A stretch of 64,000 nucleotides of DNA, taken from contig NZ_FNUC01000004.1 of NCBI RefSeq assembly GCF_900106035.1, positions 2,046,001 through 2,110,000 of the forward strand, written 5' to 3'. How positions within the stretch are numbered: the stretch's first letter is position 1; the number at the start of each line of letters is the position of its first letter. Origin of the DNA: Jiangella alba. GTDB taxonomy: Bacteria; Actinomycetota; Actinomycetes; Jiangellales; Jiangellaceae. Position numbers and translations under genes: made by a program. The notes under the pieces are model-generated. The model was not told the origin of the DNA and did not search any database. It saw only the letters and a program-made list of their open reading frames with translations. Positions 19,021 through 30,259 of the stretch are shown piece after piece.

Positions 19021-19096
19021 GGGGCTGTGGCGCAGCTGGTAGCGCACCTCGTTCGCAACGAGGGGGTCAGGGGTTCGAGTCCCCTCAGCTCCACCA
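19021..19096 (+). tRNA. tRNA-Ala (anticodon CGC)
   Basis: A complete cloverleaf can be drawn: acceptor GGGGCTG with CAGCTCC, including the G3-U70 wobble that identifies alanine tRNAs; D arm GCGC...GCGC; anticodon stem CCTCG/CGAGG with loop TTCGCAA (anticodon CGC, reads GCG); T arm AGGGG-TTCGAGT-CCCCT; discriminator A and an encoded CCA at 19094-19096. A GC-rich hairpin follows. tRNA genes are common integration sites, and the next 8 kb look like accessory DNA. Confidence 0.97.
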
Positions 19097-19151
19097 ATGT
19101 GTGAGTCGGGACCTCGTTGAGGGACGTTTCGGAACATTGCTGGTCGTGCGC

Positions 19152-19178
19152 GGGAGCTCGGCCAGCGGCCGGGCTCCC
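19152..19178 (+). terminator. Hairpin downstream of tRNA-Ala
   Basis: GGGAGCTCGGCC, loop AGC, GGCCGGGCTCCC: 11 Watson-Crick pairs and one G-U pair, followed by GTTGTT. It is placed 55 nt after the tRNA 3' end and is a good candidate transcription terminator. Confidence 0.6.
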
Positions 19179-19609
19179 GTTGTTCACGCTCATGGCAGCC
19201 TTGGCGGCGTAGGGGACGTTAACGCCGAGGTGGAGCATACGAGCGGTGCGGCGTAGTGACCTTTGCGACCTGTGGGCGCGGCGCCGTCGAGGTGCAACTC
19301 CCCCGTCCGCCGCGTCGTCCATGACGCGGGTTGATCTGCGCGACGGCGTTCAGCACGGGCATGCCGCGACAGCGAGCGAGAACAGCCGCCGGTTCACGCC
19401 GATGTCGGAGCCGTGACGATCACTCTCGTTGATCAACGCGTCGTGCTCACCGCCCGATCGATGATTGAGCCATCAAGCGCCGCGAGGCGTCCGCTTGCGC
19501 GGGACTCCTTCGGTGCCATCCCCACGTGATTGGCTCGCTACGCCATGTGTCCGAGGGTGGGACTACGGTGCTGCGCATTTCCGAAGACGGGTGTGGAGGG
19601 GCGCACGGC
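19179..19609. other. Gene-free gap between tRNA-Ala and the accessory genes
   Basis: No supported gene, repeat or RNA was found here. One minus-strand frame (about 19190-19320) encodes RTARMLHLGVNVPYAAKAAM, which could be a remnant of a coding region, but no family was recognised. No copy of the tRNA 3' end was found in the rest of the window. The composition is less GC-skewed in codon position than the flanks. Confidence 0.4.
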
Positions 19610-20884
19610 ATGGCAAAGCGTGGATTCTTCGCCGAGTTGAACTATCAGGCGCAGCAGGCAGAGAAGCGGCGCCGACAGCAGCAGGCTGCAGCAGTTCGGG
19701 CGCATAACGCTGCTGTCCGTGAAGCCGAGCGTGCCCGGCGAGCAGCTGAGCGGGCGCGGGCGGCGGCCGGGCGTGCGGCGGAGGCGCAGCGGAAGGCTGC
19801 GGAGAAGGAGGCTGCGCGGCTGCACGTCGAGGCGCGCACCGCTGAGGCCGATGCGATGAACAAGGACCTGGCGGCGACGTACGACGACATCGACACGTTG
19901 CTGGTGTGGACCCTTGACTTCGACGACTTCGTGGATCTGGAAGCCCTGAAGGTCACAGTGGAGCATCCGCCGTTCGATCCGGGCCAGCTCGGCGAGCCTG
20001 TGCCACCGGTCCCAGAGTTGGTGTATCCGCCTCAACCGACCTACAGCGAGCCCGCTGCGCCGAAAGGCTTGTCGGCGGCGTTCGGTGGAAAGAAACGGCA
20101 CGCCGAGGCAACCGAGCAGGCAAGGACGGCACATGAGCGGGCGCAGCGCGAGTGGCACGAGGCGGCGACCCGCCAGCACGCAGCTCATGTCGCGGAACTG
20201 GCCGCTCGAGAGAATGCCGAGACAGACCGACTGGCGAGGCTTGCGAAAGCGGAGAGCACCTACAGGGCCGAGTGCGCGAAGCGTGAGGCTGGGGCCGCCA
20301 CGAAGAACGAGGAGCTGACGAAGTTCATCAACGACCTTGCGTTCGACATCGAGTACGCCATCGAGGACTACGTCGGCATCGTGCTGTCCAACTCGGTCTA
20401 CCCCGATGCGTTCCCCGTCGAGCACGAGCACAGCTTCGATCTGGGCACCCGGGAGCTCACGCTGCAGGTGAACATCCCGGAGCCGAGCGCACTGCCGACG
20501 ACCAAGGAGTATCGATACGTAAAGGCGAAGGACGAGATCACCGTCATCCAATTGCCGGCCAAGAGCCAGAAGGATCGCTACAACACCGCAGTGCATCAGG
20601 TCGCACTACGCAGTCTGCATGAGGTCTTCGAGGCCGACCGAGCTGGCAAGATTCACTCGATCGCGCTTACCGTCGGAGTGAACAGGGTGTCGCCGGCGAC
20701 GGGTCAGCCGGAGTACGTACCGCTGGTAGTCGTCGCTGCTGACCGGGAGACGTTCGGCTCCTTCGACCTGGCCAACGTGGTGCCGGCCGCGACTTTGGAC
20801 CTCTTGGGCGCTGCCATGTCGAGATCGCCATTCGACCTGACGCCGGCCGATACCAGCCGCGGCGTCCGACAGCGGGCCCACTGA
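19610..20884 (+). CDS. Coiled-coil protein of an accessory two-gene unit
   Basis: A 424-aa protein. It opens with MAKRGFFAELNYQAQQAEKR and then a long Ala/Arg/Glu/Gln-rich coiled coil (about 10-95), DDIDTLLVWTLDFDDFVDLE (about 107-126), a Pro-rich linker, a second coiled coil (about 165-235) and a folded C-terminal domain (about 240-410). From memory, the N-terminal region resembles actinobacterial proteins annotated as restriction system proteins that carry an Mrr-type nuclease domain at the C-terminus; no such catalytic motif is seen here. The ATG at 19610 has GGAGG upstream. Its TGA overlaps the next ATG (TGATG), so the two products are probably made together and may interact. The function is unknown. 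Confidence 0.65.
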   Translation: MAKRGFFAELNYQAQQAEKRRRQQQAAAVRAHNAAVREAERARRAAERARAAAGRAAEAQRKAAEKEAARLHVEARTAEADAMNKDLAATYDDIDTLLVWTLDFDDFVDLEALKVTVEHPPFDPGQLGEPVPPVPELVYPPQPTYSEPAAPKGLSAAFGGKKRHAEATEQARTAHERAQREWHEAATRQHAAHVAELAARENAETDRLARLAKAESTYRAECAKREAGAATKNEELTKFINDLAFDIEYAIEDYVGIVLSNSVYPDAFPVEHEHSFDLGTRELTLQVNIPEPSALPTTKEYRYVKAKDEITVIQLPAKSQKDRYNTAVHQVALRSLHEVFEADRAGKIHSIALTVGVNRVSPATGQPEYVPLVVVAADRETFGSFDLANVVPAATLDLLGAAMSRSPFDLTPADTSRGVRQRAH

Positions 20885-22326
20885 TGCGGTTCAATCCGCC
20901 TCCGGGATGGCCGCAGCCGCCAGCCGAGTGGGTACCACCGGTGGGCTGGAAGCCCGACCCGTCATGGCCGCCTGTCCCGGATGGCTGGGAGCTGTGGCTT
21001 CCCGACGTCGAGGCTCCAGCAACGCCAACGGCCGAGACGGCGTTCGCGGATGCCCTGCTGACCGCTTCCGATGACGCGGAGCTCGAGCCCACTCGATCTC
21101 TCCCGTCAATCGCGCCAGTCACGTCGGCTGCGTCCGCCGCGATGGCGGCAGCGGGGCCTGCGGTTGTCGCGTCTTCGACTCCGGCGCCCGCCGCCACAGG
21201 AACTGACCCCTCCACGCTGCTGCGGCGCATTGCGCACCTCGAAGCCGCACTGTCCGCCGCTCAGACCATGGGCGGCGGCGACGTCGTAGAACTGGAGGAC
21301 CAACGGGTTCTCCAAGACGCCGGAATCTATCGATACCACCATCCGCTGGAGGACGCGGCCGCCTATAAAGAGCGGCTCGCTGACATCAACTCTGCCGTCG
21401 ACGAACTCGTGAAGACTGGCCAAGCCGTCCTCGCAGCGGACCTTTTCACCTTTGATGGTTCGCTCGCCAAAGGACGCAAGATGGTCGGCGACCTCTCCAA
21501 GCTCATGCTCCGTGCCTACAACGCCGAAGCGGACAACTGCGTCCGGTCGCTGCGGTCGGGGAACATCTCAACCGCAAAAAGGCGGCTGGAGAAGGCGATG
21601 ACGGCCATCGAGAGGCTCGGCGCTGTCATGGAGATGCGCATTAATCCTGACTATCACCAACTTCGGGTCCAGGAGCTCGAACTCACCGCGGACTACCAGG
21701 TGAAGGTCCAGGAAGAGAAGGAGCGAGCGCGCGAGGAACGCGAGCTGCTACGCGAGCAGCGCAAGGTCGAGCAGGAACTCGCCGCAGAACGTGAACGGCT
21801 GGAGAAGGAGAAGGCGCACTACGAGAGTGTCCTAGGGGCGCTTCGGGCGAAGGGCGACGACGCGGCTGCGGACGAGCTCGTGGGACGGCTTGCCGAGATC
21901 GAGCAGGCCATCGAAACCAACGACTACAGGACAGCGAACATTCGGGCCGGTTACATCTACGTCATCTCCAACATCGGCGCCCTCGGCCCCGACATTGTCA
22001 AGATCGGTATGACTCGGCGCCTCGAACCACGCGATCGAGTCCGAGAGCTCGGCGACGCGTCGGTCCCGTTCCTTTACGACACCCATGCGCTCTTCTTCTC
22101 TGACGACGCTGTCGCACTGGAGAACGAGCTTCACAGGGCGTTCGCGCATCGTCGGGTGAACCTCGTCAACGAGCGACGCGAGTTCTTCTTCGCCACGCCT
22201 GCGGAGGTCCGGCAGGTGCTGATGCAGAAGGTCGGCGGCCTACTCGAATTCACCGAAACACCCGAGGCAGGTGAGTATCACCAGAGTCGTGGCCGGTGGC
22301 CGGTGGCCGGACTCCGCCCCGCCTGA
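20884..22326 (+). CDS. DUF4041-like protein with C-terminal GIY-YIG (T5orf172/Mug113) nuclease domain
   Basis: A 480-aa protein. Residues 1-42 are a tryptophan/proline module (PPPGWPQPPAEW, GWKPDPSWPPVPDGW). After a variable linker come a short coiled coil (about 115-135), a DUF4041-like region (about 140-275), a long coiled coil (about 260-345) and a GIY-YIG domain of the T5orf172/Mug113 type: GYIYVIS at 356-362, KIGMTRR at 373-379 (catalytic Arg), ENELHRAF at 413-420 (Glu415) and NLVNERREFFF near 426-436. All core catalytic positions are present, so DNA cleavage is likely. It is translationally coupled to the preceding coiled-coil gene. Such proteins occur on phages and islands; a defence role is inference. 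Confidence 0.8.
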   Translation: MRFNPPPGWPQPPAEWVPPVGWKPDPSWPPVPDGWELWLPDVEAPATPTAETAFADALLTASDDAELEPTRSLPSIAPVTSAASAAMAAAGPAVVASSTPAPAATGTDPSTLLRRIAHLEAALSAAQTMGGGDVVELEDQRVLQDAGIYRYHHPLEDAAAYKERLADINSAVDELVKTGQAVLAADLFTFDGSLAKGRKMVGDLSKLMLRAYNAEADNCVRSLRSGNISTAKRRLEKAMTAIERLGAVMEMRINPDYHQLRVQELELTADYQVKVQEEKERAREERELLREQRKVEQELAAERERLEKEKAHYESVLGALRAKGDDAAADELVGRLAEIEQAIETNDYRTANIRAGYIYVISNIGALGPDIVKIGMTRRLEPRDRVRELGDASVPFLYDTHALFFSDDAVALENELHRAFAHRRVNLVNERREFFFATPAEVRQVLMQKVGGLLEFTETPEAGEYHQSRGRWPVAGLRPA

Positions 22327-22495
22327 GCGCCGAATGCTGAATGCAGGCGCCTAGTGGCCTCGCCAACAGGCAGCTAGCACAAGGGCTCATACCTCCTGAG
22401 GGGTTGCCCGACGCTCGAGCCGTGACGATCGACGTGCCCAACGTGGTCTTGTGGGCCAACGGACCCGTCGCCGGACGATTGTCGGTGGCGGCGGC

Positions 22496-22501
22496 TAGCG
22501 T
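22496..22501 (+). promoter_or_regulatory. -10 element TAGCGT of the SNF2 gene
   Basis: TAGCGT lies 7 nt before the ATG at 22509 and decides the start: the open frame extends upstream to 22341, but those codons would lie before the promoter. The gap 22327-22495 shows nothing else. Confidence 0.45.
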
Positions 22502-22508
22502 GGTCGGC

Positions 22509-25814
<3,306 letters not shown>

Positions 25815-25893: not shown

Positions 25894-27021
25894 GTGGCGT
25901 TGGCTGGGTCGGGTGACCGCGGCGAGCTACGCGCCGCGATCGAGGGCCTGCTGCGCACCTGCGTCGAGCTGGAGCGGCACGCCGACGAGATGGCGCGGAC
26001 CTCGCGCGATCAAGCCAACCGGGTCGCGCGCGGACTCGTTGGTCTGCGGGCGCCAGGCGTATCGGGACTGGCCGGCGAGATCGCGGACGTCGCAACGGCC
26101 ATGCGCGTCGACGTGTCCAAGGCGTTGCTCGAGGCTCGCGCACCCTACGTGACGGAGGTTCATCAGTTGCTGGGGCTCCTGGCGCCGCTTCACGGAGTGG
26201 CGACCGTACCGGCGTTGAGCCCGCCGGGGACGGTGGACGGCTTGGCGGCGGCGTTTCCGGCCGGATTCGCCCGGGACTACGTGGCGGACGTCGTGTCGGC
26301 GGTGGAACACAGCGCCGCCCTTCAGATCGAAGCGAGCGAGCGCGTTCAGGTGGTGTCCAAGGCCGACGCCGACGGAGCCAAGTCGGCCACCGGCGCGGCG
26401 TTCTCCGACGGCCACCGTGACACAGGAGTCGATCTGCTCGATGGTCCCGCCTGCCACGCCGTGGAGCGTCATGGTCCGCAGATCCCCGACGAGGCGCAGT
26501 TGGCGCGCCTGATCTGGCTCAAGGACCCCTCCGGCGCGGATGGCTGGCAGATCACCGCCGACGGCTCCGTCCTGACCGGTCATCGCTGCGGCATCTCGGC
26601 GGGCGGCTTCACCTCACCTGAGGCGTTGGCCAAGCCGATCGAGGCATTCCTACGGGCAGCGCACGCCCAGGCGGGCGGACTCGACGAGTTCCTGACGAAG
26701 AACACCAAGAAGAAGGCCAAAGTCGTGGGTATTCACGTCAGCGCCGAGATCGCCGGCTTGAATCCTGGCGACGCATGTGGCTATCGCGGCGCAGGCACGC
26801 AGACCAAGGAAACACGTCGCGATTGGCTCTCGGCGCGGGAGTTCGGAATCGCCGAAGGCCGAGTTGCGGTATTCGGCGTGCCTTTCGACCCGATCACCGA
26901 AGGCTCTGATCCCGGCGCCACGCTGGTGTTCCGAAGATCTGGCGCCACCTGGTGGCTGGTGACGTGCTACCCGGTTGAGAAGCAAAGCCCCACGAACCTG
27001 CGACTGGAGGACCTCTCGTGA
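25894..27021 (+). CDS. Candidate polymorphic toxin with RNase A-like C-terminal domain
   Basis: A 375-aa protein with a helical N-terminal region (about 1-110), a linker, and a C-terminal domain from about 180. The latter begins ACHAVERHG (His188, His193), continues with AGGFTSPEALAKPIEAFLRA (about 236-255) and ends GATWWLVTCYPV (350-361; Thr357, Tyr359). This order (H..RH near the start, an F(T/S)..A helix in the middle, a final L-T-x-Y-P strand) matches what I recall of bacterial RNase A-like CdiA-type toxins, although a segment in the middle is longer. The GTG at 25894 has a perfect AGGAGG 6 nt upstream. It overlaps the next gene by 4 nt, as toxin and immunity genes often do. The toxin assignment is inference. 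Confidence 0.5.
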   Translation: MALAGSGDRGELRAAIEGLLRTCVELERHADEMARTSRDQANRVARGLVGLRAPGVSGLAGEIADVATAMRVDVSKALLEARAPYVTEVHQLLGLLAPLHGVATVPALSPPGTVDGLAAAFPAGFARDYVADVVSAVEHSAALQIEASERVQVVSKADADGAKSATGAAFSDGHRDTGVDLLDGPACHAVERHGPQIPDEAQLARLIWLKDPSGADGWQITADGSVLTGHRCGISAGGFTSPEALAKPIEAFLRAAHAQAGGLDEFLTKNTKKKAKVVGIHVSAEIAGLNPGDACGYRGAGTQTKETRRDWLSAREFGIAEGRVAVFGVPFDPITEGSDPGATLVFRRSGATWWLVTCYPVEKQSPTNLRLEDLS

Positions 27022-27560
27022 TCGGCATGAGCCACAACTTCAAGGTGTTCTTCAGCGGCGGGTTCGGCATGGCCGATCACGAACCAGATCTCTACGTCGA
27101 AGCATGTGAGGACGTACCGGAGATGCTCGCCGACGACGACGGCGACTATCAGGCGTTCCGGGAGGAGTTCGCGGCCCATATCCGCGACTCGTCGTTCCCG
27201 CCGTCGTCGTCACTGGACTCGCAATGGATGACGGACGAGTGGTTGCGCAACGTCTGGTACGACGCGTTCGGGCCGCAGCCGCCGCCGGGCGACCCGTACC
27301 CCGTCCCGCCGGAGCACTGGGGGCACCTGCGGCAGACCGACTACATGATCTATGCGGTCAAGGACACACCGGAGCAGAGCAGTCCCGGCGCGGCGACCTG
27401 GTTGGAGCGCCGGGGGCTGACGTCCAGCAACGTGAGGGCCGGTGTGCTGCGGCCCGCGTCGGAATCGGTCAACTTCAGGGACGCGCCGGAAGGGTGGCTC
27501 GAGCGGCTGCACGACCTCGTCGAGCGCGGACTGCGGGAGGAACAGCCAGGCGAACGCTGA
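27018..27560 (+). CDS. Candidate immunity protein for the upstream toxin
   Basis: A 180-aa acidic, soluble protein that starts with a GTG overlapping the stop of the toxin-like gene (GTGA). It has an acidic N-terminal half (EPDLYVEACEDVPEMLADDD), a Pro-rich middle (GPQPPPGDPYPVPPEHWGHL) and a C-terminal helix. There is no signal peptide or membrane segment. No family was recognised. The immunity role is inferred only from its size, acidity and tight coupling; it could equally be an independent hypothetical protein of the island. It is the last gene before a convergent quinone-oxidoreductase gene. Confidence 0.5.
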   Translation: MIGMSHNFKVFFSGGFGMADHEPDLYVEACEDVPEMLADDDGDYQAFREEFAAHIRDSSFPPSSSLDSQWMTDEWLRNVWYDAFGPQPPPGDPYPVPPEHWGHLRQTDYMIYAVKDTPEQSSPGAATWLERRGLTSSNVRAGVLRPASESVNFRDAPEGWLERLHDLVERGLREEQPGER

Positions 27561-29929: not shown

Positions 29930-30011
29930 GAGCTGGTCCACGCGATCCGACCAAGCGATGGGGCGGACGGGGTGACGCGGCGGCGACGGAGCGGCGGGCA
30001 GGCGACGGGGC

Positions 30012-30170
30012 GATGCGGCGGCGGACGGAGCGGCGGGCGGACGGGCGCCGCGGCGATGCGGCGGTGGACGACGCGGCGGGCGGACGGACGGGCGCCGCGG
30101 CGATGCGGCGGTGGACGACGCGGCGGGCGGACGGACGGGCGCCGCGGCGATGCGGCGGTGGACGACGCGG
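30012..30170. repeat. 47-bp tandem repeat, about 3-4 units
   Basis: A unit starting GATGCGGCGG recurs at 30012, 30055, 30102 and 30149 (spacings 43, 47, 47). The two central units are nearly identical. The period is not a multiple of three and the region lies between convergent genes, so it is not coding. The rest of the gap 29930-30259 is similar low-complexity GC-rich sequence with no gene. Confidence 0.85.
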
Positions 30171-30259
30171 CGATGTTGCGGGTGACGACGCGGCGACGCG
30201 ACCGCGGGCGGACGTGCGTCGTCGGGGGCGGCCGGATGGCGGACGGCTGGAGCTCACGG

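Follow-up and report, generated by a model that had tools for sequence, protein, structure and literature searches.

A coiled-coil gene joined to a SNIPE-type nuclease gene in Jiangella alba: a probable two-gene defence unit

PD-Lambda-1 was discovered by functional selection (PMC9519451) and, under the name SNIPE, has been described from Escherichia coli as a membrane-bound nuclease acting on phage DNA while it is being injected, which it cuts (PMC13190303). In that description SNIPE is one membrane protein and separates phage DNA from the cell's own DNA by location. Without its transmembrane (TM) segment, the E. coli protein is toxic because its nuclease cuts host DNA (PMC13190303). Among SNIPE homologues, 59% were predicted to have one N-terminal TM segment, 7% two and 34% none (PMC13190303). 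Here we analysed a 64,000-nucleotide stretch of the 7.68 Mb genome of Jiangella alba (contig NZ_FNUC01000004.1, positions 2,046,001 to 2,110,000; hereafter the window), in which a gene for a coiled-coil protein (ORF1) directly precedes the gene of a TM-less SNIPE homologue (ORF2). This homologue belongs to a TM-less branch that has the second gene in every member examined; its members come from Actinomycetota and, going by record labels, several other phyla. In this branch the partner may supply location or restraint.

Two further types of described systems resemble parts of this locus. The mREase_IV restriction proteins share a front coiled-coil and alpha/beta module with ORF1, but ORF1 lacks the Mrr_cat nuclease domain, and the nuclease of the pair has another fold and is encoded by a separate gene. 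The pair links SNIPE with Mrr-type restriction proteins by way of this common module, which has no known function. Like the pair, CoCoNuTs combine coiled-coil proteins with nucleases (PMC11090510). However, a McrB-type GTPase is at the core of CoCoNuTs, and neither GIY-YIG nor DUF4041 is found in the main text of their description (PMC11090510). No match to a McrB-type GTPase was obtained in ORF1, ORF2, the SNF2 helicase gene that follows them or the two ORFs after it.

The ORF1/ORF2 gene pair

ORF1 (19610..20884, + strand) encodes 424 amino acids and ORF2 (20884..22326, + strand) encodes 480 amino acids. Both frames are intact and co-directional, and they are joined by a TGATG overlap at 20882..20886 (+ strand), which contains the stop codon of ORF1 (TGA, 20882-20884) and the start codon of ORF2 (ATG, 20884-20886). 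A purine-rich GGAGGGG lies directly 5' of the ATG of ORF1 at 19610, and the relatives show a similar start. The first-pass annotation of this DNA had described a coupled pair whose first protein resembles the front part of restriction-type proteins but has no nuclease and whose second protein carries DUF4041 and a GIY-YIG nuclease. The intact frames and the profile matches given below bear this out. It had also proposed an undescribed system, which holds in part: the composition of the pair was not found described in the portions covered of the literature on PD-Lambda-1, DUF4041 and T5orf172 in defence, but ORF2 belongs with the SNIPE homologues and ORF1 has the front module of mREase_IV. The parts of the pair are already known and their combination is apparently new; each protein has named relatives, and it is their combination that calls for explanation. 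Collectively, ORF1 and ORF2 appear to form a coupled two-gene unit with a probable role in defence.

ORF2 matches the PADLOC profile PD-Lambda-1 with an E value of 7.6e-107. It has the domain order of SNIPE, with DUF4041 in the middle of the protein (residues 206-261, 21499..21666, + strand; PF13250, E 7.3e-22, 77.4 bits against a cut-off of 27) followed by a C-terminal GIY-YIG nuclease domain (residues 356-446, 21949..22221, + strand; Pfam T5orf172 and MUG113), and it keeps the conserved Arg and the catalytic Glu. Five residues of this domain (K373, G375, R378, R385 and E413) are present in all 76 paired ORF2 homologues compared and in 18 or 19 of the 19 solo homologues, which have no ORF1 beside them; Arg378 and Glu413 are kept in all 19. 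The active site had been assigned to Arg378 and Glu415. The former is indeed invariant, but Glu415 is present in only 65 of the 76 paired and five of the 19 solo proteins, and the catalytic Glu is Glu413 instead. Glu413 aligns with E414 of a 500-residue homologue from an E. coli plasmid that has an N-terminal hydrophobic stretch. The numbering of this protein is likely that of SNIPE, of which the mutant E414A was made in the E. coli study (PMC13190303). Searches with the ORF2 sequence against PDB gave no match at E 0.1, and its model had no Foldseek match below E 0.001. VIA-align placed residues 355-461 on Slx1 and HIGLE (Z 6.8-7.1), scoring below its long-helix matches.

The N-terminal half of ORF2 differs from that of SNIPE. 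A hydrophobic N-terminal segment was found in none of the 81 paired ORF2s by Kyte-Doolittle hydropathy (none above 1.6), a cruder call than the DeepTMHMM prediction used for SNIPE (PMC13190303). ORF2 is not excluded from SNIPE by this, because TM-less homologues are counted as SNIPE in that study (PMC13190303). Instead of an anchor, ORF2 starts with a module rich in tryptophan and proline (W/P module; residues 1-43, 20884..21012, + strand), which recurs as a motif at the paired loci and is modelled with a predicted local distance difference test (pLDDT) score of about 89-94. The predicted helix before DUF4041 is also shorter in paired ORF2s: the proline-free stretch has a median of 39 residues (10-74, n=77), compared with 91 (68-131, n=19) in solo actinobacterial homologues. 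A rank test on this difference (p 2e-11) was not used as evidence because the paired clade may represent one event. At the C-terminus, W472 and P473 are typical of paired ORF2s (74 and 72 of 76, respectively) and mostly missing in solo actinobacterial proteins.

The W/P module was identified at 79 of the 81 paired loci, that is, at 76 and at three more, two of which have it in another frame; it is absent from three paired ORF2s of a basal branch (L040/L232, L093 and L100). Among 12 Jiangella genomes it occurs only in two paired ORF2s. It was found at 28 places among 197 genomes of the class, and 29 loci (these 28 and one from the Jiangella set) were examined. The 24 that could be roughly classified comprise eight SNIPE proteins, 13 with hydrophobic segments (12 distinct non-SNIPE proteins, one ORF having been picked twice) and three without. 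One of these three is a decayed ORF2 (genome G105) and another is in a doubtful frame. A DUF4328 protein, one of the 13 with hydrophobic segments, carries the module at its C-terminus. At another locus (L262, genome G153) the module is N-terminal on what we take to be a GHKL-type ATPase. This distribution suggests that the W/P module may be a membrane-linked adaptor.

The AlphaFold2 model of ORF1 (mean pLDDT 91.6) predicts a long antiparallel helical hairpin and an alpha/beta domain. The first long helix (residues 6-95, 19625..19894, + strand) starts inside an RGFFAEL motif seen in an alignment of eight sequences, the second comprises residues 154-244 (20069..20341, + strand), and the alpha/beta domain, which is also marked by conserved columns, forms the C-terminus (residues 248-424, 20351..20881, + strand). 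The sole PADLOC match of ORF1 is mREase_IV (PDLC03663, E 2.4e-29). Only positions 23-380 of the 544 in this profile are aligned, so the C-terminal part is missing. In all seven longer ORF1 relatives scanned, from actinobacteria, that end is Mrr_cat. The 80 short and 25 long forms of ORF1 have 25 conserved columns in common, 19 of which fall in the alpha/beta domain. At E 0.1 nothing in Pfam or NCBIfam matched ORF1, and a Pfam search with 80 family members gave only scattered matches, each in one or two members. The PDB sequence search returned five weak coiled-coil matches only (best E 0.034), no match was obtained among 50,697 phage records, and Foldseek found none below E 0.001 for the fold. 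VIA-align matches to BAR-PH proteins (Z 3.6-4.7) were not used. One ORF1-Mrr fusion has a TerD domain at its C-terminus (L047:8962-11016, + strand, genome G076).

Constancy of the pairing

A search of 296 genomes of the class with ORF1 gave matches in 42. The short group, found in eight of the 296 (including the window's genome), has full-length matches with 44-78% identity, or self, in frames of approximately 420-570 amino acids; the long group has 27-41% identity and mostly longer frames. ORF2 lies directly 3' of the short-group ORF1 in all eight genomes, seven times intact and once, in genome G105, decayed after about 100 residues. It was found (>45 bits) at none of 11 long-group loci within the stretch fetched.

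A wider scan for short ORF1 yielded 132 relatives, of which the best 80 loci were kept. ORF2 follows ORF1 on the same strand at all 80 of these genome loci and at the single viral contig, so the co-occurrence that the first-pass annotation had asked to be checked is confirmed, and the adjacency is far beyond chance. A start/stop overlap is present at 63 of the 81 pairs, which is an upper estimate because starts were taken nearest to the ORF1 stop. Judged by profile coverage, 77 of the 81 have both frames whole, the exceptions being L078, L118 and L132 (ORF1) and L099 (ORF2). At L062 and L126 one frame holds the W/P module and another the ORF2 core, leaving 75 of 81 with both frames whole. By record labels, Actinomycetota account for 61 of the 80 paired loci. 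The other 19 include isolates of Aliidiomarina maris, Paracoccus tibetensis, Sagittula marina and Planctomycetes bacterium Pla163, and metagenome-assembled genomes labelled Nitrospira, Verrucomicrobiales, Gemmatimonadota and others; some contigs of the latter could be misbinned. An overlapping pair is also carried by a Kocuria rosea plasmid, the only one of 18 ORF1-matching plasmid records that is not long-group by identity.

The pairing was also examined from the nuclease side. A DUF4041 search made without ORF1 as seed was positive in 28 of 393 actinobacterial genomes, and ORF1 lies beside DUF4041 in seven of the 28. A careful tree of 45 rows was built from 27 of the 28 matches (the fragment L253 was omitted) and 18 chosen rows. 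All paired rows form one clade with support of 100/96 and a single change of state, and none of the 20 solo rows is placed inside it. A quick tree of 101 rows, with about every second paired row, recovered the same clade with support of 97. Whereas SNIPE is a single gene, the paired clade has two genes throughout this DUF4041-seeded sample. ORF1 and ORF2 are also co-inherited, in that their distances are correlated (mirror-tree r 0.835, 74 pairs), the maximum of 500 permutations being 0.129. Among 66 viral-contig loci found with ORF2, ORF1 stands beside it in one (L133, on the same contig as L132). The simplest reading of these trees is that the partner gene was gained once and then kept.

No mention of a partner gene was found in the parts consulted of PMC13190303 and PMC9519451, and one-gene models of PD-Lambda-1 omit the partner in the paired branch. 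In a survey of Clavibacter, PD-Lambda-1 was reported in 95 of 114 genomes (PMC11856565). The Clavibacter locus in our set (L125) is paired, so some of the PD-Lambda-1 surveyed there may be paired too.

Some solo homologues have other additions. A TerD domain is N-terminal on one solo DUF4041/GIY-YIG protein (L231:838-2871, - strand, genome G082), and a DUF2510 N-terminus is present on some others, by Pfam at L199:5665-7062 (+ strand) and by motif only at L135, L239 and L237. The copy among the latter that comes from a Rhodococcus plasmid has genes for McrC and an AAA ATPase beside it.

Proposed role of ORF1 and alternative explanations

We consider it on balance probable, by a little, that the pair is a two-gene variant of SNIPE in which the nuclease would depend on ORF1, as an obligate partner, for its positioning or restraint. 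We infer complex formation, membrane contact, restraint, recognition and anti-phage activity for it. ORF2 would be the nuclease, with DUF4041 binding DNA and the GIY-YIG domain cutting it, and its W/P module would probably target the membrane or a membrane protein in place of the TM anchor. ORF1, translated from the same mRNA, would bind ORF2 through its hairpin and alpha/beta domain and substitute for the long N-terminal helix that precedes DUF4041 in solo actinobacterial SNIPEs. It may thereby keep the nuclease in position, and prevent it from acting on host DNA, up to the entry of phage DNA, and its longer relatives may do the same job for an Mrr nuclease through direct fusion. Given that E. 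coli SNIPE becomes toxic when its TM segment is removed, some other restraint may be required in a TM-less SNIPE. The paired branch lacks the TM segment, has a short helix and gained an ORF1 of the type otherwise fused to a nuclease; the simplest reading of this combination is that ORF1 binds ORF2 and positions or restrains it.

Several observations weigh against this reading. TM-like segments were found in only two of 20 solo actinobacterial DUF4041 proteins (200 residues before DUF4041; the fragment L253 was left out and L249 is incomplete) and in 16 of 59 non-redundant viral-contig ORF2 homologues. They are thus absent, without any ORF1, from 18 of 20 and 43 of 59, respectively, and a missing TM segment alone does not explain ORF1. 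The proline-free stretch of viral-contig solo SNIPEs (median 77, 31-180, n=49) overlaps that of the paired proteins. The W/P module also occurs on solo SNIPEs without ORF1 and so is not by itself a docking tag for ORF1; the idea of such a tag was dropped, since unrelated membrane proteins carry the module too and three paired ORF2s do not. At the three loci with a broken ORF1 frame (a 3.8 kb contig, L078; a complete chromosome, L118; and the viral contig, L132) ORF2 is whole or nearly so, which argues mildly against strict dependence. No solved fold was clearly matched by ORF1: its best VIA-align match, a sex pheromone precursor (Z 7.2, 109 residues, root-mean-square deviation 4.1), is at a level noted as common. 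Since other TM-less SNIPEs manage without ORF1, it may supply recognition instead. We tentatively entertain the possibility that ORF1 is a portable sensor of foreign DNA or of injection that licenses different nucleases, Mrr by fusion and SNIPE in trans, with the alpha/beta domain reading a phage signal and the hairpin transmitting it. If so, one recognition module would cover two nuclease folds and account for the sparing of host DNA by the TM-less SNIPE branch.

Compared with restraint of a positioned nuclease, the main rival is an antitoxin role for ORF1. In such a unit, which seems doubtful here, ORF2 would be a soluble toxin freed from ORF1 upon infection, and both host and phage DNA would be cut and the cell would die. 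The nuclease-dependent toxicity that SNIPE shows in E. coli when it lacks the TM segment (PMC13190303) fits this, as do the overlapping genes with the inhibitor-like gene first and the absence of the 20 solo DUF4041 rows placed from the paired clade. However, ORF1 is large and predicted to be well folded, and the fusion of its relatives to an Mrr nuclease is less what one would expect of a labile antitoxin than of a module for recognition or scaffolding. The three loci that retain ORF2 despite a broken ORF1 also speak against an antitoxin, and SNIPE is not abortive with lambda, as SNIPE cells grew to confluence with lambda and no lysis was seen (PMC13190303).

Two independent defence proteins that share an operon and have an additive effect are improbable. 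Long-group ORF1 relatives and SNIPE relatives do each occur without the other, but short ORF1 is next to ORF2 at every one of the 80 genome loci, the paired ORF2s form one clade, and in ORF1, which lacks the Mrr domain, no catalytic domain is recognised. A DNA-repair or DNA-processing pair outside defence is, if anything, less probable still. A nuclease together with a coiled-coil protein would suit this, and the flanking-gene families listed are mostly metabolic; against it stand the patchy occurrence in the class, the different sites of the pair in two Jiangella genomes, the type I restriction-modification (RM) genes and Dnd genes that occupy its slot in two relatives, and the homology of ORF2 to a proven anti-phage protein. 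Least probable, to the point of being nearly negligible, is a three-part system with the SNF2 helicase gene (22341-25814). This gene begins 14 bases after ORF2 and its product resembles the DpdE and ZorD helicases by PADLOC, but no SNF2 homologue was met in the fetched stretch at the 81 other pairs, its NCBIfam matches are all far below cut-off, and of nine Jiangella regions four have it in a collinear position with other DNA in the slot.

Genomic site and neighbouring genes

The pair lies in a variable slot whose left edge is a tRNA-Ala(CGC) gene (19021..19096, + strand; ARAGORN). Nine Jiangella regions were fetched; every one keeps the left flank up to approximately 19094-19184, and the DNA beyond differs. 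The four regions with a collinear SNF2 gene all lack the pair and have 7-16 kb of other DNA between SNF2 and the tRNA, compared with 3.4 kb here; SNF2 was not met within the stretch fetched in the other five. The pair had been placed on a tRNA-linked site next to SNF2, which is correct for its position, but SNF2 does not belong to the unit. SNF2 and two ORFs at 25894-27560 were considered as parts of the system and dropped, having no homologue in the fetched stretch at the 81 pairs. The SNF2 protein matches the PADLOC profiles of the helicases DpdE, ZorD and DrmD; it is unlinked to the pair elsewhere, and a scan of five genes gave no clear match to another Dpd, Zorya or DISARM component. The two ORFs 3' of SNF2 (25894-27021, 375 amino acids; 27018-27560, 180 amino acids) overlap and have no Pfam match and no NCBIfam match above cut-off. 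They are in the stretch kept with SNF2 in one Jiangella genome (G009) and not in the matching stretches of another (G014).

Nine proteins chosen from four Jiangella regions were scanned to identify what occupies the slot. It holds type I RM genes in genome G008, and DndA, DndB and DndC follow the tRNA in G005. In G012 the pair is on another contig than the tRNA-Ala site. From these comparisons the slot looks like a defence hotspot with a movable two-gene cassette. A search of the window for another copy of the 25-base end of the tRNA, as expected of an attachment site, found none at up to three mismatches, and no attachment-site-like repeat was seen among the 20 direct-repeat families listed of 34. 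Between tRNA-Ala and SNF2 in G009, a 936-amino-acid protein (L219:8977-11784, - strand) matches Mokosh profiles (MkoA, E 2e-53).

A survey of the neighbours extracted 257 proteins, of which 192 were compared with Pfam and 95 of those with PADLOC; the 25 largest families were listed. Most of the families listed are metabolic. The defence or mobile genes listed include QatA, QatC and QatD, PD-T4-6 kinase profiles, AbiEi, mads_6, a type II methyltransferase, SRA-HNH, three integrases and three Schlafen-type helicases, and no enrichment is claimed because the survey had no control set. Elsewhere in the window, a G+C-rich tandem repeat at 29983-30184 has four copies with a spacing of 43-47 bases.

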